Shown: one piece after another, positions 34,942 to 63,995 of the stretch
How positions within the stretch are numbered: position 1 is the stretch's first letter
Layout of the letters: each line of letters starts with the position of its first letter
Translations under genes and position numbers: made by a program
The notes under the pieces: generated by a model
What the model was told of the DNA's origin: nothing
Seen by the model: only the letters and a program-made list of their open reading frames with translations
Database searches by the model: none
NCBI GenBank assembly: GCA_030430495.1
Contig: JAUIKM010000014.1
Location: 62,001-126,000 of the forward strand
Length of the DNA stretch: 64,000 nucleotides
Origin: a bacterium
Lineage (GTDB): Bacteria > Bacteroidota > Ignavibacteria > Kapaibacteriales > UBA7675
Reading direction: 5' to 3'

Positions 34942-35280
34942 AAAAGCTCCAGAAATAAAGGTGTGGAAAACAGTGAATAATTGCCGTGTCTCCGTCGGCA
35001 AACAGAGCAAAGCGAGTTGAGATCGAACGAGAAGCAGTGTATCGGTGGCAGTGGATACCGTTAATGACCCCAAAAGCTAGGCATTTTTCGAACTTCCGCA
35101 AATGAAAATCCTCGCTGTCCGCGAAGCCTCTTCACAGAGAAAAAGAGCGCGGATTTATCGAAATATTGACCGTTCAGTCGGCAGCAGCGCCCGCTGAAGT
35201 TTTTGTGTTTTGACCCGCCTGCGCGATGCCCCATTTTGACCAACGTCAACAACAGTCATCCACGCGGAGCGGAGGAAACG
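34942..35280. other. Divergent intergenic region
   Basis: 339 bp between the small secreted protein (-) and the TPR histidine kinase (+). It must contain both promoters, but no convincing TTG/TAnnTTTG pair was recognised. GGAGGAAACG directly before ATG 35281 is a strong Shine-Dalgarno site, unusual among the genes here. Confidence 0.4.
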
Positions 35281-37200
35281 ATGAACTGCATTTTGTGGCT
35301 GCAACAGTCGCGGGGAGCGCCGCCGATTCCGCTGCGTTCGCCGACGCCCGGATACCGGGCGAAAAGCGGCGGCGTCGGAGCCGATCCCGCCCGCATCGGC
35401 GTGGCGCTGTGCAATGCCGCCGCGTGCGATCTGCTGCGCGGCAGGACCAACATTGCGGCGGCCCGGCTGGCCCTGAATATTGCCGGGCGAACGCGCAAGT
35501 ATTTCAGGCCGCTGATACTACTGGTTCTGGCGCTGCAATGTCTGTCAGCCGGAGATGTTCGGCGCGCATTTTTGTGCGGGCGGGCGGCCCTGGCAGCGTC
35601 GGACGCGTCGCCGCAGCCGACGCTGAAAATCTTTGCACTCAACAACCTGGCGATGATTTCAGTCCGCTTGGGATTGCTCGACGAGGCAGCGCACATGCTG
35701 CGCAGCGCGCTGCGTCTGGCGCCCGCGCGCGCTGCGCCTCTGCGTGCGCATCTGCTGCTGCAACAGGGCAAACTCTCGGCGCGCCGCGCCGAGTATGGGC
35801 CGGCGATGACAGCCTGTTCTGCCGCCGTTCGCATGTTCGCGGCATTGTCCGAAGCGTCCGGCGCCTGCGACGCCATGACGGTTCTGGGCGCGGTCCGGAT
35901 GGCGGAGTCGCGGCCGCGCAGGGCGCACAGCCTGCTGCGGCGTGCGTTGCGGCGCGCCGCCGGAATTGCCGATGCGGGCGTTCGCCGTCTGATGCGGGCG
36001 CGCATTCTGTTGCTTCTGGCTCGGCTTGCCGCCGGCGCGGGGCACGAGAGGTCGGCGCGCAATTGCGTGCGGCGCGCGCTGTGGGCCGCCGGCGCAATCG
36101 GGGCGCATGTGCTGGAGGCGTCGGCTCTTGTGTTCCGGGCGGAGAGAATGGCTCCGGCCGTTGCGGCGGCGGGCAGGATCCATCGGCGACTGCAATCGCT
36201 TGAAGCGGGGGAGTTGCCGGCGGGCCTGCGCTGCAGGATCCGGCAGTTGTTCGTCGGAGCGGCCGCCGCGGCCGGCGACTACAAAGGCGCATATGCGCAG
36301 GCGGAGCGCGCGCGGCGTTTTTGGCGCGCCGAGAGGGACAATCGGCTGCGCAGCGAGGAAGCGCTGCTGTCCGCCACGACCGAACTGCAAAAACTGCGGC
36401 GGCGCGGGGCGGGATTGCAGCAGGCCAACATTGCTGCCGCGGCCGGAAATCGCACGCTGGAAGCGATGAATATCCACATCCTGGCGCTGGAACGCGAGCG
36501 CAGTCAGCTGCTGGACCTGGCGAGTCACGATCTGAAAAACCCGCTGGCCGCGCTCGTGCTGGACGTATCGATTCTGCAGCACTACGGCGACAGAATTCCG
36601 GCTGCGGAGCGCAGCGCGCGCATAGATAAGATGCTGGCCGCCGTGCGGCGCCTGCGCGACATTGTCGACGGCGTGCTGCAGTCGCAGTCGCTCGACGACT
36701 TTGTGCGGGACGGTGCGCCGGAATGTTTTGAACCCGCCGCTTTGCTCCACGAAATCGCGGCGGAGTTCGCCGCGAAAGCGGCCGTGAAGAACCAGAATAT
36801 TCACTGCGAGATTGAGGCGGGAATCCGCATCCGTGCGGCGCGGCGGGGGCTGCGGCACGCGCTGGAAAACCTGCTGTCAAATGCGCTGAAATTCTCGCCG
36901 CCCGGCAAGACCGTATTGCTGGGATTGCGGCGCTGTTCGGGAGCGGTTCACATGACGGTTCAGGATCAGGGGCCGGGAATTCGGGCGGACGAGCGCGCGA
37001 AGTTGTTCACCCGCGGCGCGCAGCTCAGCGCCCGTCCGACCGGCGGCGAACACAGCAGCGGGCTCGGGCTGGCGTTGGTCTCCGCCCTGATGCGCTCAAT
37101 GGGCGGCGGCGTGCGCCACGAAGATGCACCCGGCGGCGGCTCCCGTTTTGTGCTGGAAGTGCCTGCGGGCGCTACAGATGCGGAGGAAACAGTGACATGA
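35281..37200 (+). CDS. Cytoplasmic TPR histidine kinase
   Basis: About 639 residues. ATG 35281 follows GGAGG at ideal spacing. Residues ~30-370 are Ala/Arg-rich helical repeats (TPR-like), then a coiled coil (~375-405). The HisKA domain has His416 (LLDLASHDLKNPLAALVLD). The HATPase domain has its N box in LENLLSNALKFSPPG, G1 in DQGPGI and G2 in SSGLGLALV. No transmembrane helix or signal peptide is seen, so it is a soluble kinase sensing through the TPR part. It overlaps the next gene by ATGA, and that partner has the same layout but lacks the catalytic residues. No receiver domain is encoded nearby. Codon use is very GC-rich, with Arg and Ala dominating. Confidence 0.88.
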   Translation: MNCILWLQQSRGAPPIPLRSPTPGYRAKSGGVGADPARIGVALCNAAACDLLRGRTNIAAARLALNIAGRTRKYFRPLILLVLALQCLSAGDVRRAFLCGRAALAASDASPQPTLKIFALNNLAMISVRLGLLDEAAHMLRSALRLAPARAAPLRAHLLLQQGKLSARRAEYGPAMTACSAAVRMFAALSEASGACDAMTVLGAVRMAESRPRRAHSLLRRALRRAAGIADAGVRRLMRARILLLLARLAAGAGHERSARNCVRRALWAAGAIGAHVLEASALVFRAERMAPAVAAAGRIHRRLQSLEAGELPAGLRCRIRQLFVGAAAAAGDYKGAYAQAERARRFWRAERDNRLRSEEALLSATTELQKLRRRGAGLQQANIAAAAGNRTLEAMNIHILALERERSQLLDLASHDLKNPLAALVLDVSILQHYGDRIPAAERSARIDKMLAAVRRLRDIVDGVLQSQSLDDFVRDGAPECFEPAALLHEIAAEFAAKAAVKNQNIHCEIEAGIRIRAARRGLRHALENLLSNALKFSPPGKTVLLGLRRCSGAVHMTVQDQGPGIRADERAKLFTRGAQLSARPTGGEHSSGLGLALVSALMRSMGGGVRHEDAPGGGSRFVLEVPAGATDAEETVT

Positions 37201-38975
37201 AAGACGGGTCGGCGGTCGCCGCCGCCGCGGAACTGGAATGTGAAGAGCTTTTGGCCAGGGCGGAATCGCTGGTCCGCCGGAGTGAAGCGGCGCGGGCCCT
37301 CGGGCTGCTGCTGCCGCGGCGGGATGAGTTTCGTCGCAGGGCCCCGCGCGAAGTGCATATTCGCGGCAGCAAACTCATTGGCGTATGCCTGCAACTGGAC
37401 GGAGATATGGCCGGCGCGTACGCGCAGTATCGCTCCATCCTCGACCTGGAACCAGGGACCGCGCCGCCGTCGCTGACGGCCGACGTACACAACAACCTCG
37501 GCATGCTGCTGGCGCACCTGGGCCGCCACGACGAAGCGTTGTTGCACTACCAGGCGAGCATGCGTCTCGATCCGGCGCCGCCCGGCGACCCCGGGCGGGC
37601 GATGACGCACAACAACATCGGTCTGCTGCTGAGCGACATGGGGCTGCCTCTGGAGGCGCTGCGCCAGTTCAGGGCGAGTCTGGCGATCAAAACAGCCTCC
37701 GGCGATCGGCGCGGCGAAGCCAACACGCTGGACAACATCGGGGCTCTGTTACTTGAAGCGCAGCGATTGCGCCCGGCGGCGCTTTGTTTCAGGCGCGCGC
37801 TGGAACTGCGTCGCGACGTCGGCGACCTTCGCGCGCAGGCGTCAAGCCATTTTCATCTCGGTCTGTTGGCGCGTCGCGGCGGCGACGAACACGGGGCAAT
37901 GGATCACTTTGTACGCGCGCTCCGCACACACGGCGGCGGCGACGCATACGAATATCTGGCGCTGCAGGCCGCGGCCGCCGCGGCCGCCGTCGGAGTTGCG
38001 GGCATAGACCGGGCGGCAAGACTGTTGCACGGCGTGATCCGCCGGGCCGACACATCAGGCGCGCTTACCATTGCAATCGAGAGTCTCGCGGTGCTGGAGC
38101 GCGCGCAGGCGGAGGCGGGCAACTACCGCGCCGCATTGCAGGCTGCCGACCACGGTCGCCGGCGCGAAGAACGACAGGAGAGGCTGTCGCACAACGGCGC
38201 GGCGCGCAAGCGGCATTTCAATGCGGCAATTGCCGAGCAGCGTGCCGCGGCGATGCATTCAAGACAACACCTGCGCGCTTTGCAGCGGCGGGAGCGCAGG
38301 CTGGCGGCGCACAAAAAGCGCCTTGGGTGCGCGCTGGAGCAGCGCGAAACGCTGCTCCGACTGTTCCGGCTGGATTTGAAACAGCCGATTGAAAAGCTGG
38401 GAAATCTGATTGAAGAACTGCGCGGGCTCAACCCGGGGGCCGGGGCGCAGGGGTTGCAGGTGGTGGAAGACATCTGCCGCAGGATTCAGGAACGGATACA
38501 CAGTCTGTTGAGCGAGCGGAGCGCCGCCGAAACGCAAGCGGAGACAAGGGAGGTCGGCCTCGACCTGCTGCTGGATGAAGTCGCCGAACGGGCGGCCGAA
38601 CACTACGGCGTGCATCTGGAGTTGATCGGCCGGCGACGCCAATTCGCGGAACTGGCTCTGTATGGCGGGAATTCACGGGAATTGCGACAGCTGTTTGACG
38701 AGCTGCTGGCGGCGGCGGCGCAGGGCGAAGAACAGAACCTGCGGGTAGCGGTTGCGGACGGCTTTCTGTATGTGATGGGCGGTCCGGAACTGCCGCGGAT
38801 GTCCGCTGGAAACACAAGCGTCGAAATGGCTCAATCCGCCGTGCAAGCGCTTGTGGAGCGCCTGGGCGGACGCGTTGTTCACAGCCGCCGCGCGGGCGGC
38901 GGCGGGACCGCACTGGCGGTGCCGCTCCGAATCGCGGCATCCGGAATGGCGGGGAAAACACGTGCCGAAGACTGA
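37197..38975 (+). CDS. TPR protein with degenerate histidine-kinase core (pseudo-kinase)
   Basis: About 592 residues, starting at the ATGA overlap with the kinase gene. Residues ~20-310 contain recognisable TPRs (HNNLGMLLAHLGRHDEALLH, TLDNIGALLLEAQRLRPAAL). A coiled coil follows (~320-385), then a segment resembling HisKA: LLRLFRLDLKQPIEKLGNL. Leu392 stands where the kinase has its phosphoacceptor His. The last 170 residues resemble a HATPase fold ending in GGGGTALAVPLR, but the Asn of the N box and the DxGxG motif are missing. It should therefore be unable to phosphorylate itself. It probably modulates the neighbouring kinase as a heterodimer partner or scaffold (inference). Confidence 0.75.
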   Translation: MKDGSAVAAAAELECEELLARAESLVRRSEAARALGLLLPRRDEFRRRAPREVHIRGSKLIGVCLQLDGDMAGAYAQYRSILDLEPGTAPPSLTADVHNNLGMLLAHLGRHDEALLHYQASMRLDPAPPGDPGRAMTHNNIGLLLSDMGLPLEALRQFRASLAIKTASGDRRGEANTLDNIGALLLEAQRLRPAALCFRRALELRRDVGDLRAQASSHFHLGLLARRGGDEHGAMDHFVRALRTHGGGDAYEYLALQAAAAAAAVGVAGIDRAARLLHGVIRRADTSGALTIAIESLAVLERAQAEAGNYRAALQAADHGRRREERQERLSHNGAARKRHFNAAIAEQRAAAMHSRQHLRALQRRERRLAAHKKRLGCALEQRETLLRLFRLDLKQPIEKLGNLIEELRGLNPGAGAQGLQVVEDICRRIQERIHSLLSERSAAETQAETREVGLDLLLDEVAERAAEHYGVHLELIGRRRQFAELALYGGNSRELRQLFDELLAAAAQGEEQNLRVAVADGFLYVMGGPELPRMSAGNTSVEMAQSAVQALVERLGGRVVHSRRAGGGGTALAVPLRIAASGMAGKTRAED

Positions 38976-40781: not shown

Positions 40782-41635
40782 TTTCGGCCTCAAACTATTC
40801 GAATTGAATGACAGGCGCTGCGACTTTGTGCCGCGGCGCGGTACAAATTTGCGATTATTTGTTCAGTTGCGGAAACGGCGGCGGCGATGGCGTCTGTACG
40901 GGGCATTTCCGGTTCGATTGCGGCGAATCGCAGATAAAGGCCGGAATGTATCCGCGCGATTGGATTTGTTTTCCGGTCAACTGAACGATCACCTGCGTTC
41001 TGCCGCCCGTTCAGCGGTGAAAGCAGGACGTTCAGTCTTTTGCGCTTGTGCGGCTGCCGGCATGGGGACATTTTGCTTTTGTCGAACCATCCGGAGGTTT
41101 GGCCGCGCCGCGCCGAAGCGTCCCGCAGAAGGGACGTACCGGACTCAAAAAAACACCGCAAATGTGGGGTAGTGCGTGTGTGGGCAGACGTCCGGAACAT
41201 GAGGGAAACTGGACTGGCGGCGGCGGAAAATAGTTGCCCAGGCAACTATTTTTGAGTTGATTGTTCCCGATGTCATTCTCCGGTACAGTTTTTCCGCTGT
41301 GGGCGGCGTGATTTACCGCCGTCGCGCCGCTTTCCGGCATCTCGCGCTCTTGCCGCGGGCCTGCGGCGGCCGCGAACGCGGCGTCCGCAGACTCATCAAT
41401 CAAAAACAGCCGCTTTTTGGCTGCAAACCCGGCGACGAGCAAAAGGGCCTTTCTCAGCCTGGAGAAAAGCCGACGGCGACCGGGAGGAAGCCGGACTGTC
41501 AAGCCGGCGCTCGACGTGGCCCGGCAGACGGTTCACGCGGTGATGATGCCGCCTGAAGCGATCCGAATTCGCCACGAGCGGCATTTGGCGTATATTCCCG
41601 CCGAATCAGCTCTGGGACCAGACGAAACGGGGACT
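40782..41635. other. 0.85-kb divergent intergenic region
   Basis: Between glnS (-) and the transporter gene (+). Several short frames overlap on both strands without any recognisable product. The one clear structure is the terminator-like palindrome at 41227-41253. An in-frame stretch before the transporter (from 41417) is open but lacks hydrophobic or conserved character. A small RNA ending at the palindrome is possible. Confidence 0.4.
41227..41253 (+). terminator. Perfect AT-ended palindrome, terminator-like
   Basis: AAAATAGTTGCC, then CA, then GGCAACTATTTT with a further T: 12-bp arms with A-rich left and T-rich right flanks. This is the shape of a bidirectional Rho-independent terminator, but no annotated gene ends here on either strand. 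Confidence 0.6.
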
Positions 41636-44600
41636 ATGGCGTCAAGCAGTTCGAAGTTGGGAACCTTCGGCGGGGTGTTTACTCCGTCGATTCTGACGAT
41701 CCTCGGCGTCATCATGTACCTGCGCCTGCCGATGATCGTGGGGACGGCCGGCATTGCCACGACGATCATTATCATCATCGTGGCGCACGTGATTTCGTTC
41801 ACCACCGGCCTGAGCGTGGCGTCGATTGCGACGGATAAAAAAGTACGCGTCGGCGGCAACTACTACATTATCTCGCGCAGCATGGGCCTGCCGATCGGCG
41901 GGACGCTGGGGCTGGCGCTGTTCGTGGGGTTCTCCTGCAGCATCAGCCTGTATCTGGTCGGTTTTTCCGAGAGTTTCCTCGAATATTTCGGCTGGGAAAC
42001 CAGCCTGGACAACATCCGGATCTGCGGGACGATTGCGCTGGCGGCGCTGGCGGTCATCACCTGGATCAGCACCTCGCTGGCGATCAAGGCGCAGTACGTC
42101 ATCATGGCGGCTATCGCCCTTTCGCTGGTGTCGGTCTTTTTCGGCACGCACGAACTTGGCCCGGCGGCGGCGGCGGTGCGGCCCGAATCCGTCCCGGAAT
42201 TCAACAGCAACCTGATGATGCTTTTCGGCATCTTTTTCCCGGCCGTGACGGGGTTTACCACCGGCGTGCAGATGTCGGGCGACCTGCGCGACCCACAGCG
42301 CTCGATTCCCATCGGCACGATTTCCGCGATCGTCTTTGGTCTGGTGGTCTACATCGGCCTGACAATTTTCCTGGGCCTGACGGTCGACGCGGAGCAGCTG
42401 CGCACGAACTCAACGATCTTCAACGAAATTTCGCTCTCCGCGCCGCTGGTGGTGGCGGGAATCTGGGGCGCGACGCTTTCTTCGGCTATCGGCAGTATTC
42501 TGGGCGCGCCTCGCATTCTGCAGGCGACGTCGATGGACGGCATCACGTTTCGCTTTTTCGCCAAGGGTCACGGGCCGGCCAACGAGCCGCGCAATGCGAT
42601 GATCCTGGTTATTGCGATTGCCGAGGCGGGCATTATCTACGGGGATCTGAATGCCATCGCGGGCATCATCTCCATGTTTTTCATCACGACCTACGGTTTC
42701 CTGAATCTCAGCTACGCCATTGAGAGTTTCGGCAGCGCGGACTTCCGACCGACGTTCCGCATTCCTTCCTGGATCGCCTGGCTGGGATTTGCGACCTGTA
42801 TCGCGGTCATGACGCAGTTGAATCCGCTGGCGTCCTTCCTGGCTTTTGCGGTGCTGGCGCTGGTGTTTGTTTACTACAAACGGCGCGAGCTGACGCTGGA
42901 AAGCGGCGACACCTGGGAGGGCGTCTGGTCTTCCGTGGTGCGCTCGGGTCTGTACCGCCTGAGCCGGAGCCGGACGCACCAGCGCAACTGGCGGCCGAAC
43001 GTCATGCTGTTCAGCGGCAATCCGACCACGCGGCCGCACCTGATGCAGTTTGCCGAGCAACTGGTCTACCGCCGCGGTATCCTGACGTCGTTCGAACTGG
43101 TCGAAAACCCGGAGGCGGAGGACCTCTTTCCGCAGCCGCGCGGCCACGAACACGAGGTCGACCCGACCATTCCCGGCAAATTCCTGCGTCGGCTGGAGGC
43201 GCGCAACGTCTACGACGCCATTGAGACGATCACGCGCATCTACGGCTTCTCCGGCATCGAGCCGAACACCGTGATTCTCGGCTGGGCGCGCAACAGTAAA
43301 AATCCGCGGCGTTTTGCCGAGCTGCTGCGCCGCATGCGCGAGCTGGACCAGAACATCCTCGTGATGGACTACGACCAGGAGCGCGGCTTCGGCAAACGCG
43401 AACGCATCGACATCTGGTGGCGCGCCGGCGGTAACAACGTCACGCTCGTGCTGATCCTGCTCAAATTCCTGCAGGCGACGGAGGTGTGGCGCGGCAGCCG
43501 GGCGCGCATCATCGTGGTGGTGGACGACAGCGCCGCGGTTAATCCCGTGCAGAAAATGCTGGACCACGTGCTGGACGAACAGCGCGTGCAGGCGGCCATC
43601 AAAGTCATCAACAACGGCATCGAACGGCGTCCTTTTCACGACCTGCTGCGCGCCGAATCCATGGAAGCCGACTTAACCCTTTTTGGTTTGCCAACGCTCG
43701 ACAAGGACAACGTCACCGATTTTGTCGAACGGACCGACGGCGTTTTGCGGCAAATCGGTACGGTGATTCTGGTCTCGGCGTCTTCGTTCTTCAAGCCGCT
43801 GGCCGGCTCGCTGGGCCCGGATTCAGGTGAGCTGGCTGTGCTGGCGCGGCGCCGGGCGGAAGAAAACATGGACTTTGCGCCGGTGCTGCCGCTGCAGAGC
43901 GGCCCGGCGACCATCCTGGAAAACGTGCACGCCGCCGCCGGCGACGCGCTGCAGGAGTTTGTCGCCTCCGCCGTTGTCGGCATCGAGCAGGCATTTCTGA
44001 GTCTGAGCGCCGAGGCGCAGGAGCTGGTGGAAAACGTGGATGAGTCGCGCCGCAAAGCCGGCGACGACCAGAGCGAGCGCCGGCGTCGTGAAGCCGCCAT
44101 CCGCGCGCGCAGCACCCTGCTCTTCCAGAGCCGCCGCCTGGTGGATCGTTTTGTGGATGAGCGCATCGACGCCATGCGCCGCCGCCTGGAGCTGGGGCTG
44201 GACGGCCTGCTGAAAGGCGTGGACGCCGCGGCGGTGCACGCTCCGGCCACCAGCGCCATCCGCTTTGACCGCGCCGAGCTGCAACCGGCGCCCGGCGACG
44301 GCGCGGGGCTGGCTTTCCTGAAGTATCGCGCGCGGCTGCGTGCGCGCCTCAGCCGCGGTGAGCCGAGCATCGTGATGAATATCGGCGCGCTCGTGCGCCA
44401 CGAGCTGCACGTGCACTTCCCCGAATTGCTCTACAAGCGCCTGGAAAGTTTCGGCGTGGCGGCGTATAAAACGGCGTCCGAACTGAGGCAGGTGCTGGGC
44501 ATGGCGCACGACCGCCTGGACCGCGCGATCGACGGCGGCGCGGAGGCGGACGAACAGGGCGGCGGCGATCCGGCGCAGCATTTTGACCAGTTGCGCGAGG

Positions 44601-46777
44601 GCATCCATGCCGCCTGCAATCAGCTGCGCAAGGGGCTGCAGGCCGACCTGCGCCGGCTGGTGGAAACCATCACCGGCGACATCCTGGCCGTCGACGGCAA
44701 CCGACGCATTCGACGGCGGCTGCGCCGCCGCGCCGAGGCGCGTGAACGCATCGGCAGTGTGGCCGAGCGCTGGTCCCGCAACGAGGCGCTGACGTTCAGC
44801 TACGCGACGCTGAGCTTGCGGCTGACGGCCTTGCACAGCCGCCTGGGCGCGGTTATCGACAAGTTTGAAGCCGAAATCGAGCGCAATGTGCGCGAGCTGC
44901 TGCTCGACAAACTGGTTGAACTCGAGCGTCGCCTTCAGGCTATGGCCGGCGGCGCGGAGGACGTCAACCTGATGCCGATCATGCCCGCCTATCGCACCGG
45001 TCTTGGCAGCGAGTCCTGGTACGGCGCGGTGGTGGAACAACTGCGCAGCGACGTCAAAAGCGCGCTGGCGGAACTGCCGGAGCAAAGCACCGTCATCTCC
45101 GATCAGGGATATTCCGACCTGGCCGAACACCCCTTTACAGAAGTGGAAACGGTGGACCTGCCGCTGCGCCGCCTGCTGGAGATGCAGGTCGAGAGCCGTC
45201 TGATCGGTCCCGTGCAGGACAACAGCGGCGAGCTGCCGATGCGACTGGAGCGTTCCACCGCCGTCGCGCGCGACGTCGTGCGCTCCTTCAACCCGCCGGT
45301 CGTCGAGCCCGAAATCGCCGTCGCGCTGCAGGAAGTGGGCGTCAACGACCCCGAGACGCCGGTGGAGCTGGCGCGCCGCAACATTGAGCGCATCGAAGGC
45401 GAACTGCGCAAGATCCGCACGGCACTGGAAGAACTGCGCAACGACATCGCAGCGCGCCGCGCCGCGCTGATGGAAAATCTGACGCCCTACATGGTCATGC
45501 GCACCGCCGAGCGCCTCGGCGCTGGCTGGCGCGGCGTCGACGGGCGTTCGCGCCTCGAAATTGGCGTGGGGTCCAAAACGCGTCTGCTGCGCCGCCGCCT
45601 GTCGGACTGGCTCGTCGGGCTGATGTATCGCCGCAGCGAAGGCGTGCTGCTGGCGCGTCGTTTTCAGCGCCTGGAAACGGACGAGTCGTTTGGAATTGAA
45701 CATCTGATCAGCTTCGTCGAGCAGGTAACGCCCGACGCCGAACTGATCAGGACGCTGCCGTCCTACTACCGCCAGCAATTTCTGGGCCGCCAGATGGCGG
45801 TGCGCGAACTCTGGGTGGGCCGCACGGCCGAACTGCAGCAGGCCGAGCGCGCGGTTAAACGCCACCGCCGCGGCATCGACGGCGCGCTGCTCATTCTGGG
45901 CGAGGCGGCCTGCGGCAAGAGCGACCTTTCGCGCAGCGTGGCGGCGCGTCACTTCGTGCGCGGATCGGTCTTTAATCTCTACGCGCCGGACGACATGGCC
46001 GGTCAGCGCGCGGACGTGGACCGCGCCTTCGCCGCCGGGCTGGACGGTCGCGGTGACTGTGAAGACATGCTGCGCACGCTGCCGCGTCAGTCGGCCATCA
46101 TCATTCACGACCTCGAGCGCTGGTGGGAGCGCCGACCGGGCGGGGAAGAAGCGCTGCAGCGCCTGCTGGCCCTGATCGCCGAATTCGGTTCGCGCCACTT
46201 TTTTATCGTCAATGCGGACACGACGGCCTTCCGTTTTATCAACGCCATCGTGCCGATGGACCGCATTTATCTGGGCGTGATAGAATGTGAGCCGATGCGC
46301 GCGCTCGACCTGCAGCAGGCCATTCTGCTGCGTCACCGCTCGACGGGCATGATGTTTGAGATTGAGGGCAAAACCGAAGACAAACTGAGCAGCCTGACGC
46401 TGGCGCGCTTTTTCAACAGGATTTTCGACTACTCGGGCGGCAACATCGGCGTGGCGCTGCGCACCTGGGTGGGCCTGATTCAGCGCATCGATGCGGACAG
46501 AATCGTGCTGCGCGCCCCGCGCAAGCCGAACCTCGGCGCGCTGGAGGCGCTGCGCCCCGAGTGGCTGGTGCTGCTGATGAACATTACAATTCACAAGCGC
46601 CTCCGGCCGGAGCAGCTGGCGCGCATTTTCGGCACGCCGCTCGCGCGGATTGAAGAGGACCTGAATGTCCTGCGGCACAGCGGTTTGTTGACCGAAAACG
46701 ACCAAAACCTGCTTGAGGTGGCTCCGGATATTCAGCCCTGGCTGCGCCAGTCCCTGCACGACATGGAGGTGATATGA
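41636..46777 (+). CDS. Cation-chloride cotransporter homologue fused to a P-loop ATPase
   Basis: About 1713 residues from ATG 41636 (MASSSSKLGTFGGVFTPSIL). Residues ~10-430 form an APC/SLC12-type transporter of about 12 helices (TILGVIMYLRLPMIVGTAGI; FFPAVTGFTTGVQMSGDLRD). Next comes the SLC12-specific C-terminal domain (NWRPNVMLFSGNPTTRPHL), which sets it apart from amino-acid permeases. A long Arg/Glu-rich helical region (~700-1370) leads to a P-loop NTPase: Walker A GEAACGKS at 1422-1429, Walker B-like AIIIHDLERWWE, and a C-terminal winged-helix-like segment. Known bacterial SLC12 relatives end after the first C-terminal domain. It overlaps the MscS-like gene by ATGA. Likely an inner-membrane ion transporter gated or regulated by its own ATPase, for osmotic or ionic balance; substrate inferred from family only. 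Confidence 0.85.
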   Translation: MASSSSKLGTFGGVFTPSILTILGVIMYLRLPMIVGTAGIATTIIIIIVAHVISFTTGLSVASIATDKKVRVGGNYYIISRSMGLPIGGTLGLALFVGFSCSISLYLVGFSESFLEYFGWETSLDNIRICGTIALAALAVITWISTSLAIKAQYVIMAAIALSLVSVFFGTHELGPAAAAVRPESVPEFNSNLMMLFGIFFPAVTGFTTGVQMSGDLRDPQRSIPIGTISAIVFGLVVYIGLTIFLGLTVDAEQLRTNSTIFNEISLSAPLVVAGIWGATLSSAIGSILGAPRILQATSMDGITFRFFAKGHGPANEPRNAMILVIAIAEAGIIYGDLNAIAGIISMFFITTYGFLNLSYAIESFGSADFRPTFRIPSWIAWLGFATCIAVMTQLNPLASFLAFAVLALVFVYYKRRELTLESGDTWEGVWSSVVRSGLYRLSRSRTHQRNWRPNVMLFSGNPTTRPHLMQFAEQLVYRRGILTSFELVENPEAEDLFPQPRGHEHEVDPTIPGKFLRRLEARNVYDAIETITRIYGFSGIEPNTVILGWARNSKNPRRFAELLRRMRELDQNILVMDYDQERGFGKRERIDIWWRAGGNNVTLVLILLKFLQATEVWRGSRARIIVVVDDSAAVNPVQKMLDHVLDEQRVQAAIKVINNGIERRPFHDLLRAESMEADLTLFGLPTLDKDNVTDFVERTDGVLRQIGTVILVSASSFFKPLAGSLGPDSGELAVLARRRAEENMDFAPVLPLQSGPATILENVHAAAGDALQEFVASAVVGIEQAFLSLSAEAQELVENVDESRRKAGDDQSERRRREAAIRARSTLLFQSRRLVDRFVDERIDAMRRRLELGLDGLLKGVDAAAVHAPATSAIRFDRAELQPAPGDGAGLAFLKYRARLRARLSRGEPSIVMNIGALVRHELHVHFPELLYKRLESFGVAAYKTASELRQVLGMAHDRLDRAIDGGAEADEQGGGDPAQHFDQLREGIHAACNQLRKGLQADLRRLVETITGDILAVDGNRRIRRRLRRRAEARERIGSVAERWSRNEALTFSYATLSLRLTALHSRLGAVIDKFEAEIERNVRELLLDKLVELERRLQAMAGGAEDVNLMPIMPAYRTGLGSESWYGAVVEQLRSDVKSALAELPEQSTVISDQGYSDLAEHPFTEVETVDLPLRRLLEMQVESRLIGPVQDNSGELPMRLERSTAVARDVVRSFNPPVVEPEIAVALQEVGVNDPETPVELARRNIERIEGELRKIRTALEELRNDIAARRAALMENLTPYMVMRTAERLGAGWRGVDGRSRLEIGVGSKTRLLRRRLSDWLVGLMYRRSEGVLLARRFQRLETDESFGIEHLISFVEQVTPDAELIRTLPSYYRQQFLGRQMAVRELWVGRTAELQQAERAVKRHRRGIDGALLILGEAACGKSDLSRSVAARHFVRGSVFNLYAPDDMAGQRADVDRAFAAGLDGRGDCEDMLRTLPRQSAIIIHDLERWWERRPGGEEALQRLLALIAEFGSRHFFIVNADTTAFRFINAIVPMDRIYLGVIECEPMRALDLQQAILLRHRSTGMMFEIEGKTEDKLSSLTLARFFNRIFDYSGGNIGVALRTWVGLIQRIDADRIVLRAPRKPNLGALEALRPEWLVLLMNITIHKRLRPEQLARIFGTPLARIEEDLNVLRHSGLLTENDQNLLEVAPDIQPWLRQSLHDMEVI

Positions 46778-47577
46778 ACGGCGAGGGCATTTTTGATCTG
46801 GCGGACATCGCCTTTGACGTGCACACGCTGGACCTGCTGCGCGTCCTGGCGGTCGGCGGACTGGCCGTCGTGCTGCTCTGGTTGCTGCGGCGCGGCCTGT
46901 GGGTGCTGCTGAAGCGGCGCGCGCATCGCGACATTTTACAGCGCAGTTTTCCGATTGCGGCGACGCTGTTCTGGACGCTGTTTGCGCTCTGGAGTTTTGA
47001 CCAGGTTTTTGTGCACGATTCCATGCGCATCCTGGCCACCATTTCGCTGCTGGTCGTGCTTACCGCGGGTTTTGCCTGGTACGGTGCGCGCGACTACATG
47101 GCGGGCATCGTGCTCAAATCGCAGTCCAGTTACGAAGTCGGCCGCACGATCAGCGTCGGTGATCAGCGCGGCGCCATCCGGCGCCGCGGTACGCTGGCGA
47201 TCGAACTGGAGAGCGCCGACGGACGCCGCTGGCGCATGCCCTGGAGCAAGCTCAGCTCTACCGTGCACGCACGCGAAAATCCGGCGGCGATGGTGCATCG
47301 GCACTCCTTCCGCGTCGCCCTTGCGGCCAATGAGGACGAGGCGGCGTTGCAGCAAACCCTCGGCGGCATTCTGCGCCAGATGCCCTGGACCGTGCTGCGC
47401 CAGGAGCCGCGCATTGAGCTGGAGTCCGAAACGCCCGACAGCTTTGTTTTTCTCGTCACGGTATTTATCATTGAATCGTCATACGGCGCCGGCGTCGAAC
47501 GCGCATTGCGCCGCGTCCTAAAAAGCGAAAACCTGCTGAACGAGCTTAACGCCGGCCGCAGCGATTCGGCCGATTAA
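46774..47577 (+). CDS. MscS-like membrane protein
   Basis: 267 residues, starting inside the stop of the transporter gene (ATGA). There are three hydrophobic helices: LLRVLAVGGLAVVLLWLLR, SFPIAATLFWTLFALWSF, and ILATISLLVVLTAGFAWYGA. They are followed by DYMAGIVLKSQSSYEVGRTI and a short beta domain with RRWRMPWSKL. This is the order of MscS channels (pore helix, then beta domain with the VGD-x-I turn as SVGDQRG), but the pore helix lacks the usual Gly/Ala pattern seen in the next gene. It may be a non-conducting subunit or a regulator. Coupled translation to the transporter points to a shared osmotic role. Confidence 0.7.
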   Translation: MNGEGIFDLADIAFDVHTLDLLRVLAVGGLAVVLLWLLRRGLWVLLKRRAHRDILQRSFPIAATLFWTLFALWSFDQVFVHDSMRILATISLLVVLTAGFAWYGARDYMAGIVLKSQSSYEVGRTISVGDQRGAIRRRGTLAIELESADGRRWRMPWSKLSSTVHARENPAAMVHRHSFRVALAANEDEAALQQTLGGILRQMPWTVLRQEPRIELESETPDSFVFLVTVFIIESSYGAGVERALRRVLKSENLLNELNAGRSDSAD

Positions 47578-47654
47578 ACCGATAGAATTGCCTGTTTCGC
47601 GCAGCGAAACAACACCAAATACTGTTGTGATTTTCTCCGGAGGAACGGAATTAC

Positions 47655-48470
47655 ATGGAAGATTTTGACTTTATCCAGTACGTCAGCGGTCTGGCGATGG
47701 ACATCCTGCCCAAGCTGGCGTTGGCCATTCTGGCGCTGATAGTCGGTTGGTGGATGATCAAAGGCATCATGGCCGCGGTCGGCAAAGCATTGGATCGCTC
47801 CAAGGTGGAAGCGTCGCTCAAACCCTTTCTGACCAGCATCATCGGCGTTATGCTGAAGGTCGCACTGATCATCAGTATCGCTTCCATGCTCGGTGTCGAA
47901 ACGACGTCCTTCGTGGCCATCATCGGCGCGGCCGGCCTGGCGATCGGTCTGGCGCTGCAGGGCAGCCTCTCCAATTTCGCCGGCGGTGTGCTCATCCTCA
48001 TGTTCAAGCCGTTCAAGGTGGGTGACTTTATCGACGCGCAGGGGCACAGCGGCACCGTTAGCTCTATCCAGATTTTCAACACCGTCCTCAAAACGCCGGA
48101 TAATAAAACAATTATCCTGGCCAACGGACCGGTTGCCGGCGGCAGCATTGTTAACTATTCAACCGAGCCGACGCGCCGTCTGGACATGACATTCGGCATC
48201 GGTTACAGCGACGACATCAACAAGGCGCGCGAGGTGATCTGGAGTCTGATTAATGCGGAGGAGCGCATCTTTAAGGATCCGGCCGCACAGGTGCTGGTGT
48301 CGGAGCTGGCCGACAGCTCGGTTAACTTCTCCGTGCGCATGTGGGTTAAAGGCGGCGACTACTGGCCGCTGCACTTTGAACTGACGGAAAAGGTCAAAAT
48401 CGCATTTGACAAAGAGGGCATTTCGATTCCCTTCCCGCAGATGGATCTGCACGTGGACAAACAGAGTTAA
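47655..48470 (+). CDS. Small-conductance mechanosensitive channel (MscS family)
   Basis: 271 residues preceded by GGAGGA. Three N-terminal helices end in the classic TM3 pore helix (FVAIIGAAGLAIGLALQGSLSN, with regular Gly/Ala packing). The beta domain follows (FKPFKVGDFIDAQGHSGTV, TVLKTPDNKTIILANG), with the C-terminal alpha/beta domain after it and IPFPQMDLHV at the end, a common MscS closing motif. Length and order match E. coli MscS (286 residues). It releases solutes on hypo-osmotic shock in the inner membrane. It lies 77 bp after the MscS-like gene and is likely in the same operon as the ion transporter. A terminator follows. Confidence 0.93.
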   Translation: MEDFDFIQYVSGLAMDILPKLALAILALIVGWWMIKGIMAAVGKALDRSKVEASLKPFLTSIIGVMLKVALIISIASMLGVETTSFVAIIGAAGLAIGLALQGSLSNFAGGVLILMFKPFKVGDFIDAQGHSGTVSSIQIFNTVLKTPDNKTIILANGPVAGGSIVNYSTEPTRRLDMTFGIGYSDDINKAREVIWSLINAEERIFKDPAAQVLVSELADSSVNFSVRMWVKGGDYWPLHFELTEKVKIAFDKEGISIPFPQMDLHVDKQS

Positions 48471-61620: not shown

Positions 61621-63108
61621 TTATTCGCGACTTTCCGGGTTGTAGAGCGGGTTCGGCTCGTGCGGGATGGGAGCGTGGACCTTTTGCTGCCAGGCCTGCA
61701 GTTCGCGCAGCAGCTCCTGCGCCAGGTCCGGCTGTTTGAGCGCCAGGTTGCGCGTTTCGGCTTCGTCGTCCCGCAGGTCGTAGAGTTGCAGTTTGTTGTC
61801 CTCAAAAAACTCGATCAGTTTCCAGCGGCCGCGGCGGATCACCGAGCAGGGCGTGGCGCGGAAGGTTTTGCCCGAGTGCACATATCCCTCCAGGTAGACG
61901 GGAAAATGCCAGAAGAGGGCGCGGTCCGCGGGCGCTTCATGGCCGATCTGGTCCATGTTGAGCGCTACGCCGTCGAGCAGCAGACTGTCGGTATTTGCGC
62001 CGGCCAGCGCCGCAAAGGTCGGGAACAGGTCGATACCAATCACCGGCGCGTCGCTGCGGCCGCGCGCTATCTGTCCCGGCCGGCGCAGAATCAGCGGCGT
62101 GCGGATGCCGCCTTCGTAGACTTCGCCTTTGCCGCCGCGCAGCGGACCGAGCGTGCTGTAGGTGTGGTGCCCGCCGTTGTCCGAGTAAAACACAATCAGC
62201 GTTTTGCGGGTCAGGTTGTATTGATCCACCGCCGCGACGATGCGCCCGACGCTGATGTCCGTCGCTTCCACCATGGCGGCGTAGGCCAGCGTGGCGCGGT
62301 CCGCGTAGGGATAGCGATCGTGGTATTTTTTAAACAAATCCTTGCGCGCGGAAATGGGCGTGTGCACGGCAAAATGCGGCAGGTAGAGGAAAAAGGGCCG
62401 CTTGCGATTTTTGCGGATAAACTCGGTGGCCTCCGTCGTCAAACGGTCGGTTAAATACTCCTCTTTCGGGCCGTCCTTCAGATTGGGCAATTCGTAGGGC
62501 GGAAAATAGGACGCGGGTTCGCCGCGCCTGCTGCCTCCAATATTTATGTCGAATCCCTGGCTGGTCGGGTCGTCGCCCAGGTGCCACTTGCCGATGCTGG
62601 CGCAGATGTATCCGGCTTTGTTTAATACCTCCGCCACCGTGACGACCTCGTCGCCCAGTTCCGAATTGTTCTTGGGTGTTAACAGTTGCTGTTGTTCGCG
62701 CGGGCCGCGGGCGGAGCCGCCGACGGTATACACGCCGTGGCGCGGAGCGTACTGACCGGACATGACGGCGGCGCGGCTGGGAGCGCAGTTGGGCGCATTG
62801 GCATAGGCATTGGTAAACACGCGGCCTTCGGCGGCCAGTTTGTCGACGTGGCGCGTATCGATAAACTCATTGCCCATATACCCGACGTCCTGCCAGCCGA
62901 GGTCGTCGATGTAAATCAGGATGATATTCGGTTTTTCGACGGGTTTTTTCTGTGCCTGCAATTCCTGCTTAAACAACATGACGGCGGCAAACAGGATGCA
63001 GACGCCGCAGACGAGGCGCTTTAAACAACTGCGTGCATTGTCGCTTGCGGCTCGCTGACAAACAAGATGGCCTTTGGGGTTTTGCGGGGATTTAAAGGAA
63101 CCGTTCAT
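61621..63108 (-). CDS. Exported sulfatase
   Basis: About 495 residues. The formylglycine motif C-x-P-x-R is Cys108-Ala-Pro110-Ser-Arg112 (NCAPSRAAVMSGQYAPRHG), and the metal-binding start is IDDLGWQDVGY. KWHLGD and FYSDNGGH are further family landmarks. It removes sulfate esters from polysaccharides or similar compounds in the periplasm or outside. The N-terminal 53 residues hold a signal-like helix (RLVCGVCILFAAVMLF) after a long polar stretch, so the true start could be internal. The ATG overlaps the stop of the MscS gene by ATGA. It needs a separate formylglycine-generating enzyme, not seen here. Confidence 0.9.
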   Translation of the reverse strand: MNGSFKSPQNPKGHLVCQRAASDNARSCLKRLVCGVCILFAAVMLFKQELQAQKKPVEKPNIILIYIDDLGWQDVGYMGNEFIDTRHVDKLAAEGRVFTNAYANAPNCAPSRAAVMSGQYAPRHGVYTVGGSARGPREQQQLLTPKNNSELGDEVVTVAEVLNKAGYICASIGKWHLGDDPTSQGFDINIGGSRRGEPASYFPPYELPNLKDGPKEEYLTDRLTTEATEFIRKNRKRPFFLYLPHFAVHTPISARKDLFKKYHDRYPYADRATLAYAAMVEATDISVGRIVAAVDQYNLTRKTLIVFYSDNGGHHTYSTLGPLRGGKGEVYEGGIRTPLILRRPGQIARGRSDAPVIGIDLFPTFAALAGANTDSLLLDGVALNMDQIGHEAPADRALFWHFPVYLEGYVHSGKTFRATPCSVIRRGRWKLIEFFEDNKLQLYDLRDDEAETRNLALKQPDLAQELLRELQAWQQKVHAPIPHEPNPLYNPESRE

Positions 63109-63995
63109 GTTTTGTTTCCGCTTTGCCCGGCTTTGGAAGGCATTTCTTTGTTTGTCCCGCTTGTCATGTCGAGCGGCAGAGGCAGCGGTCCGCGGAAATT
63201 CAGGTCGCGCTGCGGGAAGGGAATTTCAATCTTGTTTTTGCGGAAGATGCGCACAATCGCGATGTTTAAGTCGGAATGCACAATGGGATGGCGCATCGGG
63301 TCGGCTATCCAGCAGCGCAGGCGCATGTTCCAGGATGAGTCGCCGAATTCATCGAGCAAAACATCGGGCTTCGGGTCTTTTAACACCTCGGGATGTTCCG
63401 CGGCCGCCCGCAGCATGCTCTCGATCACCTTGTCGACATCCGAGCCGTAGCTGACGCCGACCTTGACGTTAAGTCGGATTTTGGGGTCGCCGTAGGACCA
63501 GTTAACAACGTGTTTTTCAACAAAGTCCAGGTTTGGGACAATGATCGAAATGTTGTCGAGCGAGCGGATGGTCGTCGAGCGCATGCGGATACTCGTTACG
63601 TCGCCTTCCAGCTCGTTAACAGTCACGCGGTCGCCGACCTGAATGGGTCGTTCAAATAGAATTATCAGCCCGGAGATAAAGTTGGAGGTGATGTTCTGCA
63701 GACCAAAACCGATACCGACGGAGAGCGCACCGAAGATGACGACGAGGCTGCTGAGGTCGATGCCGACGAACTGGAAGGCGATCACCGCGCCCAGAATCAT
63801 GAAGACATAGGAAAAAATGCGGAGATAGGTGTAGCGGCGGCCCTCGTCGACGCCCATGCGCATCAGGATCTGGCGCAGAATGGTGCGTCGCAGAATGCGA
63901 TTGAGCAGAATAAAACCGGCGATGACCAACATATACGTCAGAATGGTCATGGCGGAGATGGGAGTCTTGCCCAGCTCAAAAAAGGGCGTCGACAT
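63105..63995 (-). CDS. MscS-family mechanosensitive channel (may be 5'-truncated by the window)
   Basis: 296 residues from ATG 63995; no in-frame stop is seen before the window edge, so the start may be further out. Helices at ~15-35 and ~60-75 precede the pore helix and beta domain (FGALSVGIGFGLQNITSNFI; FERPIQVGDRVTVNELEGDV), with a C-terminal alpha/beta domain closing in IEIPFPQRDLNF. It is a shorter type than KefA/MscK-like proteins and resembles the bigger family of Bacteroidota channels. Its stop overlaps the sulfatase ATG by ATGA. It is the third MscS-like gene in the window (others at 46774 and 47655), not closely similar to them. Confidence 0.9.
   Translation of the reverse strand: MSTPFFELGKTPISAMTILTYMLVIAGFILLNRILRRTILRQILMRMGVDEGRRYTYLRIFSYVFMILGAVIAFQFVGIDLSSLVVIFGALSVGIGFGLQNITSNFISGLIILFERPIQVGDRVTVNELEGDVTSIRMRSTTIRSLDNISIIVPNLDFVEKHVVNWSYGDPKIRLNVKVGVSYGSDVDKVIESMLRAAAEHPEVLKDPKPDVLLDEFGDSSWNMRLRCWIADPMRHPIVHSDLNIAIVRIFRKNKIEIPFPQRDLNFRGPLPLPLDMTSGTNKEMPSKAGQSGNKT

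Follow-up and report, generated by a model that had tools for sequence, protein, structure and literature searches.

What does an ATPase do in the same chain as a secondary ion cotransporter, and why do genes of the MscS channel family lie beside it? The locus that raises this question is found in a stretch of 64,000 nucleotides (the window; contig JAUIKM010000014.1, positions 62,001 to 126,000) from a bacterium of the Kapaibacteriales, wherein the fused gene P0001 encodes an SLC12-type transporter, long helices and a P-loop ATPase, and is followed by the MscS-like gene P0002 and the MscS gene P0003. Here, based on sequences and predicted structures, from which all of the evidence comes, we find that the helical-ATPase module with its MscS-like gene is the constant part of the unit and the transporter the variable part, namely that the unit is wider than SLC12. 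We propose that P0001 and P0002 form a two-component regulated ion cotransporter, with the MscS-like partner as the sensor, the ATPase as the switch and the transporter as the effector, and we give this reading an even chance of being right. The locus is laid out as follows.

41417-46777 (+): reading frame open without a stop; the ATG at 41636 gives 1713 residues
41636-46777 (+): fused gene P0001, 1713 residues, SLC12-type cotransporter, helical region, AAA+ ATPase and winged helix
41675-42880 (+): SLC12/APC-fold transmembrane domain, residues 14-415 (Pfam AA_permease)
42953-43795 (+): cation-chloride-cotransporter C-terminal domain, about residues 440-720, with NWRP at 451-454
43838-45685 (+): long helical region of the module, about residues 735-1350 (from the model and from homology to stand-alone and exchanger-fused proteins)
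45755-46555 (+): AAA+ ATPase domain of the ORC/Cdc6-STAND type, about residues 1374-1640 (from fold comparison and motifs)
45899-45922 (+): Walker A motif GEAACGKS, residues 1422-1429, the single such motif in P0001
46553-46774 (+): C-terminal winged-helix domain, about residues 1640-1713 (weak HTH_PafC match, helix-strand pattern, ORC2 alignment)
46774-46777 (+): ATGA overlap of the P0001 stop and the P0002 start
46774-47577 (+): MscS-like partner P0002, 267 residues, with three transmembrane helices, a beta domain, a C-terminal alpha/beta domain and a degenerate third transmembrane helix (TM3)
47655-48470 (+): canonical MscS channel gene P0003, 271 residues

This layout agrees with the preliminary description of the window, which had read a single chain of about 1713 residues with an NWRP block and a Walker A motif at 1422-1429, an MscS-like gene overlapping it through ATGA, and a canonical MscS gene 77 bp further on. 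The frame from the ATG yields exactly 1713 residues, both motifs stand where they had been placed, P0002 starts within the stop of P0001 and is over the MS_channel_2nd cut-off, and P0003, over the cut-offs of MscS Pfam models, begins after a gap of 77 bp (47578-47654).

The same description had considered that the P-loop domain might be an assembly join, or that homologues elsewhere might never place these genes together. An alignment of five fused proteins, run against about 85,000 species genomes, found 552 relatives, and the fused gene was full length in 68 of the best 80, so that the ATPase does sit in the cotransporter chain in several phyla; by record title, the fused loci belong to Bacteroidota, Chlorobiota/Ignavibacteriae, Calditrichota, Marinimicrobia, Myxococcota, SAR324 and Gemmatimonadota, and the cultured carriers include Fulvivirga marina, Flexithrix dorotheae, Mangrovivirga halotolerans and Paraliomyxa miuraensis, among others. 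Among the 67 loci having at least 700 bp past the fused gene, an MscS-like gene lies directly downstream on the same strand in 59, or in 60 with L195, recognized by a better profile, and the commonest spacing among the relatives is -4, the four-base overlap; locus counts here and below are not independent, since the loci are related. Therefore, an assembly join or chance is excluded as the source of the fusion, because dozens of independent genomes share the 1713-residue architecture with its downstream MscS-like gene, and 68 of 69 full-length sequences retain the Walker A lysine. The pairing with channels, claimed earlier for both downstream genes, stands for the small overlapping gene and not for the canonical MscS, as P0003 was rejected as a member of the unit: such a gene is not conserved beside the fused genes of relatives. 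A search of 60 genomes of the same order with P0001 returned mostly ordinary APC permeases. Two broken copies were also seen, namely a fused gene split by in-frame stops (L225, genome G425) and a partner split over two frames (L135), which are either pseudogenes or assembly errors.

The part of the fused protein behind the transporter is a unit of its own. A profile built from it aligns with proteins of about 1000 residues that stand alone, almost from their first residue to their last, and with proteins of about 1500 residues over their C-terminal two thirds; since it spans whole stand-alone proteins, the helices and the ATPase constitute one module. Three classes can be defined, with the module alone (class A), behind another membrane domain (class B), or behind SLC12 (class C). 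The class B membrane domain is a Na+/H+ exchanger (Na_H_Exchanger, PF00999) in L055 and seven Myxococcota proteins (loci L055, L230, L235, L240, L241, L242, L250 and L253), and in L066, L062, L228, L246 and L251 it has many transmembrane segments with no Pfam match in that region. The genome of the window carries a class A copy as well (contig C58), followed by an MscS gene of its own, as does the relative G002, and a Gemmatimonadota genome (G564) holds three module versions in open frames of 1096, 1551 and 1717 residues.

The MscS-like gene goes with this module and not with the transporter. Among the Bacteroidota sampled, a directly adjacent MscS-like gene was found for 62 of 65 class A modules (50 downstream and 12 upstream) and for all 7 of class B; two of the three class A modules counted without one are cut 5′ by a contig end, where an upstream partner would not be visible, and the third (L065) overlaps an MscS reading frame, its own start being called too long. 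In Myxococcota, 85 of the 237 sampled genomes contain the module, and an MscS-like gene lies immediately next to the module in 19 of the 20 loci fetched; none was detected adjacent to L228 of Gemmatimonadota. As a control, 11 of 11 unfused SLC12 loci (about 720-760 residues) lack both the module and the class C partner, from which it follows that the linkage belongs to the module; one of them (L215) has a different MscS-like reading frame upstream, and the four fused genes of the control set all carry the partner. With only 7 MscS beta-domain genes in the 5.6 Mb of the window's own genome, proximity by chance was rejected against 60/67, 62/65, 7/7 and 19/20. Additionally, the trees of the ATPase domain and of the partner split the three classes nearly alike (members in the best clade: A 64/64, B 7/7 and C 29/30 for the ATPase; A 61/61, B 6/6 and C 23/24 for the partner). 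Within class C, the partial correlation of partner with ATPase given SLC12 is 0.44, versus 0.19 for partner with SLC12 given ATPase; that partner divergence tracks the ATPase more than the transporter is no more than suggestive of coevolution.

Further layouts were seen as well. In Myxococcota, the exchanger fusions L235, L240, L241, L242, L250 and L253 lie beside MscS-like genes, and three proteins (L241-L243) have a further 400-600 residues ahead of the exchanger. Five other Myxococcota proteins (L231, L245, L247, L248 and L249), module-like ATPases of about 1100-1250 residues adjoining MscS, have several hydrophobic helices in mid-protein and are an unusual membrane-embedded version of the module. 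Four distant ATPases of about 750-810 residues (L126-L129) were also found, two of them with a small MscS-like gene (about 235 residues) detected next to them that has no or a weak Pfam match.

The partner is of MscS descent. Its beta domain in P0002 scores 27.9 bits with MS_channel_2nd (cut-off 20.2), and the partner profile aligns with positions 29-241 of E. coli MscS at 1.7e-18. In the P0002 model (mean predicted local distance difference test, pLDDT, 87.8), three long helices are seen together with a beta and an alpha/beta domain; the model compares with MscS at a Foldseek value of 2.7e-12 with a TM-score of only 0.33, perhaps as the domains are posed differently. The Gly/Ala-rich pore helix of MscS channels is present in P0003, which is over the cut-off of four Pfam MscS models and has IIGAAGLAIGLALQGSLSNFAGG as its TM3, and is absent from P0002, whose TM3 is TISLLVVLTAGFAWYGARDYMAG. 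The mean Gly/Ala/Ser fraction of TM3 is 0.17 in class C and 0.18 in class B, versus 0.36 in class A and 0.52 in P0003; P0002, with a Gly/Ala fraction of 0.30, lies on the upper side of class C. In four Fulvivirga-type loci (L142, L147, L164 and L195) the partner has only 111-116 codons, lacks a hydrophobic helix and aligns solely with the final third of the partner profile (161-242 of 245). As its ATG overlaps the stop of a fused gene with intact ATPase motifs, the short partner is not a truncated gene call; therefore the cytoplasmic domain is the part kept in these four lineages. Judged from these sequences, the partner in the fused classes B and C is probably an MscS relative that no longer conducts.

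These data bear directly on the earlier proposal of a device for both uptake and release, encoded by one operon, in which SLC12 imports, the MscS-like proteins vent and the ATPase decides between them. That an MscS-like gene adjoins the module nearly always, that class A modules adjoin a canonical-looking MscS, and that a true MscS gene, P0003, comes next in the window all speak for it, whereas the partner TM3 is degenerate in the fused classes, four partners are soluble C-terminal domains alone, and a canonical MscS is not conserved with the unit. An osmotic or ion-homeostasis role thus remains natural, but the small MscS-like protein would make a poor release channel, and we regard the device as unlikely. 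Because the pore helix has been lost in the fused classes and four lineages keep only a soluble partner, we think that the partner is a sensor or scaffold and that uptake plus release is the less likely model.

The transporter domain belongs to SLC12. AA_permease matches residues 14-415 of P0001 at E=2.5e-42 (145.6 bits), and TIGR00930, the NCBIfam model for K-Cl cotransporters, matches at E=7e-114, under its own cut-off; the SLC12 C-terminal Pfam family is under its cut-off in P0001 (E=0.0024) and over it in L061. In the PDB, the sequence matches are KCC4 (3.8e-81) and NKCC1 (about 1e-71), and the KCC4 alignment extends through residue 668, with NWRP included. In human NKCC1, the ligands are A610, S613 and S614 for Na+, Y383, P496 and T499 for K+, and Y686 for Cl- (PMC7889885). 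Aligned to NKCC1, the ion-site residues of P0001 are T21, I22, Y106, P202, T205, A279, S282, S283 and Y353, of which all from Y106 onwards are kept in 67-69 of the 69 full-length fused proteins (S282, S283, Y106, P202 and Y353 in 69, T205 in 67). The position of the TM1 residue N298 of NKCC1, which contributes a backbone carbonyl, is Thr in P0001. Since the NKCC1 ion-site residues are kept and both serines of the Na+ site are absent from KCCs, as seen in the KCC4 alignment, the transporter resembles NKCC, and Na+-dependent uptake of K+ and Cl-, rather than KCC-type transport, is predicted. Unfused SLC12 proteins of about 720-760 residues (L213-L223) are common in Bacteroidota, and the NKCC1-type serines and Tyr are kept in all 11 that were examined.

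In the predicted structure, the P-loop domain, for which a structural search had been suggested, has an AAA+ core with a winged helix. The module model (mean pLDDT 84.2; helices of 40-60 residues) is nearest to ORC/Cdc6 (Foldseek 1e-6), with Aeropyrum pernix ORC2 aligned over 321 residues at Z 16.2 and a root-mean-square deviation of 5.3, the alignment running in the winged-helix part to model residue 978; the next fold matches are NSF D2 and clamp-loader AAA+ domains, and none of the matches listed covers the helical region. Across the 69 full-length sequences, the two Gly of Walker A are kept in 69 each and its Lys and Ser/Thr in 68 each, while Walker B retains its Asp in 60 and its Glu in 64; of an Arg-His pair, the Arg is kept in 67 and the His in 68. 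From these motifs, the ATPase looks active.

Such a domain invites three other explanations. First, the locus could be a defence or cell-death system, wherein a STAND-type sensor opens a membrane channel or transporter upon infection. Membrane effectors next to STAND ATPases are known in defence, and weak nSTAND/NACHT-like Pfam matches exist; however, PADLOC gave no convincing match (none for P0002, P0003 and L055, a weak transporter-side match of 0.0069 for P0001, and helix-turn-helix matches alone for the paralogue), presence is largely consistent by genus (all genomes listed of g104 and none listed of g166, with some genera mixed), and the class C pair is chromosomal and conserved in several phyla, so we consider this quite improbable. 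Second, the ATPase could energize the transporter into a primary active SLC12, with ATP hydrolysis driving salt uptake. The covalent junction and an ATP site kept in 68 of 69 would suit this, but the sites for secondary transport, that for Na+ among them, are intact, and the module also occurs without a transporter beside MscS, or on Na+/H+ exchangers, another secondary family. Moreover, ATPases of the ORC/STAND type are switches or loaders, not transport motors, and the idea is hardly probable. Last and least probable, the weak PafC, TrmB, DeoR and MarR_2 helix-turn-helix matches might point to a membrane-tethered, ion-sensing transcription regulator whose winged helix binds DNA, but a winged helix is integral to ORC/Cdc6 and many STAND ATPases, the ORC2 alignment covers both domains, and the constant partner is an MscS-like gene, not a target gene.

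The architecture, its conservation, the intact ion and ATP sites, the constant MscS-like neighbour and the lost pore signature of the fused classes come straight from the data; for the regulated cotransporter we infer from them how the parts touch, which way the signal runs, what it reports and which ions move. The SLC12 domain would perform NKCC-type secondary transport, in which the Na+ gradient drives the joint movement of Na+, K+ and Cl-, and the helical-stalk AAA+/STAND-type ATPase on its cytoplasmic C-terminus would be a nucleotide-dependent switch rather than a pump motor. The MscS-derived partner would dock on the module via its cytoplasmic domain and report membrane tension or cytoplasmic crowding; upon a shift in turgor or volume, it could alter the state of the ATPase, whereby the stalk would open or close the transporter. 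In class A, the module may control the adjoining MscS channel, which would be the effector, and in class B the fused Na+/H+ exchanger. Once the transporter was fused to the module in classes B and C, it could have taken over as effector, leaving the MscS protein free to lose its pore. More tentatively, at somewhat less than an even chance, these classes may together represent a general bacterial machinery for regulating volume and ions, with a non-conducting MscS-derived osmotic sensor, an AAA+ switch and interchangeable effectors, namely NKCC-type transporters, Na+/H+ exchangers and MscS.

Several points weigh against this regulated-cotransporter reading. Seven of the 67 fused genes have no recognizable partner, and therefore the partner is not indispensable. 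TM3 composition reflects conduction only by proxy, and because classes B and C each form a clade, few events may account for the loss of the pore; class A partners keep a canonical-looking pore, so that the older function may still include release through a channel. The co-divergence of partner and ATPase is modest and could stem from evolutionary rates, and the AAA_16 match of P0001 (1393-1481, E=1.2e-5) is under the curated cut-off, which the stand-alone paralogue passes (34.1 vs 32.6).

The question of how bacteria perceive turgor and adjust ion uptake has long been open, and the physiology of bacterial SLC12 proteins is little known. Here a single genetic unit, conserved in several phyla and present in cultured organisms, joins an ion transporter to an ATP switch and to a candidate sensor of tension or crowding, and its three module versions with differing effectors provide natural controls. 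As the module and partner recur in at least seven named bacterial groups, they may constitute a so far undescribed control of ion uptake and cell volume; in the open-access literature, with subscription journals outside the scope, no description of the fusion, the module-MscS pair or the exchanger fusions was found. If the proposal is right, channel proteins have been reused as sensors, and the unit offers a compact model of regulated Na-K-Cl cotransport.

Around the unit, the 77-bp gap before P0003 contains a short inverted repeat (GTTTCG...CGAAAC, 47590-47612) without a T run, and a promoter and terminator scan of the locus gave nothing informative. A large antisense reading frame (43823-46759, -) was rejected as a gene, being a by-product of a high-GC frame; no domain search was made on it. 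Upstream (35203-38975, +) lie two adjacent overlapping genes of the tetratricopeptide-repeat and histidine-kinase kind, whose link to the transporter unit is not evident, and another canonical MscS gene (63108-63995, -; three MscS Pfam domains over cut-off) has no linked module.

The unit resembles several known systems in part. With animal NKCC and KCC it shares the transmembrane fold, the NWRP-bearing C-terminal domain and the NKCC1 site residues for Na+, K+ and Cl-; however, the N298 position differs, the fused proteins lack any known phosphorylation-type regulation, and P0001 carries a helical AAA+ module of about 970 residues with a linked MscS-like gene. Prokaryotic cation-chloride cotransporters, for which a C-terminal domain structure exists (Warmuth et al., 2009, as cited in PMC4301019), belong to the same family, but their common unfused forms have neither the ATPase module in their chain nor, at the 11 loci examined, the module or class C partner beside them. 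The P0002 family retains the order of helices and beta domain of E. coli MscS, while differing in its TM3, in its translational coupling to a fused transporter and, in some lineages, in being cut down to the soluble C-terminal domain; for the cytoplasmic domain of MscS in E. coli, a function other than that of a channel has already been proposed (PMC4440785). Walker A, Walker B, the AAA+ core and the winged helix are shared with ORC/Cdc6 and STAND ATPases, which bear a DNA-loading or repeat sensor arm, whereas the module has long helices and, in the fused classes, a transporter. In turgor control, Ktr/Trk and Kef are ion transporters under nucleotide-binding cytoplasmic regulators, but these use RCK/KTN Rossmann domains without an MscS-like partner, where the fused unit has an AAA+ ATPase. 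If the general machinery outlined above is real, it would be a bacterial counterpart to the regulated NKCC/KCC volume control of animal cells, with its sensor derived from a retired channel.

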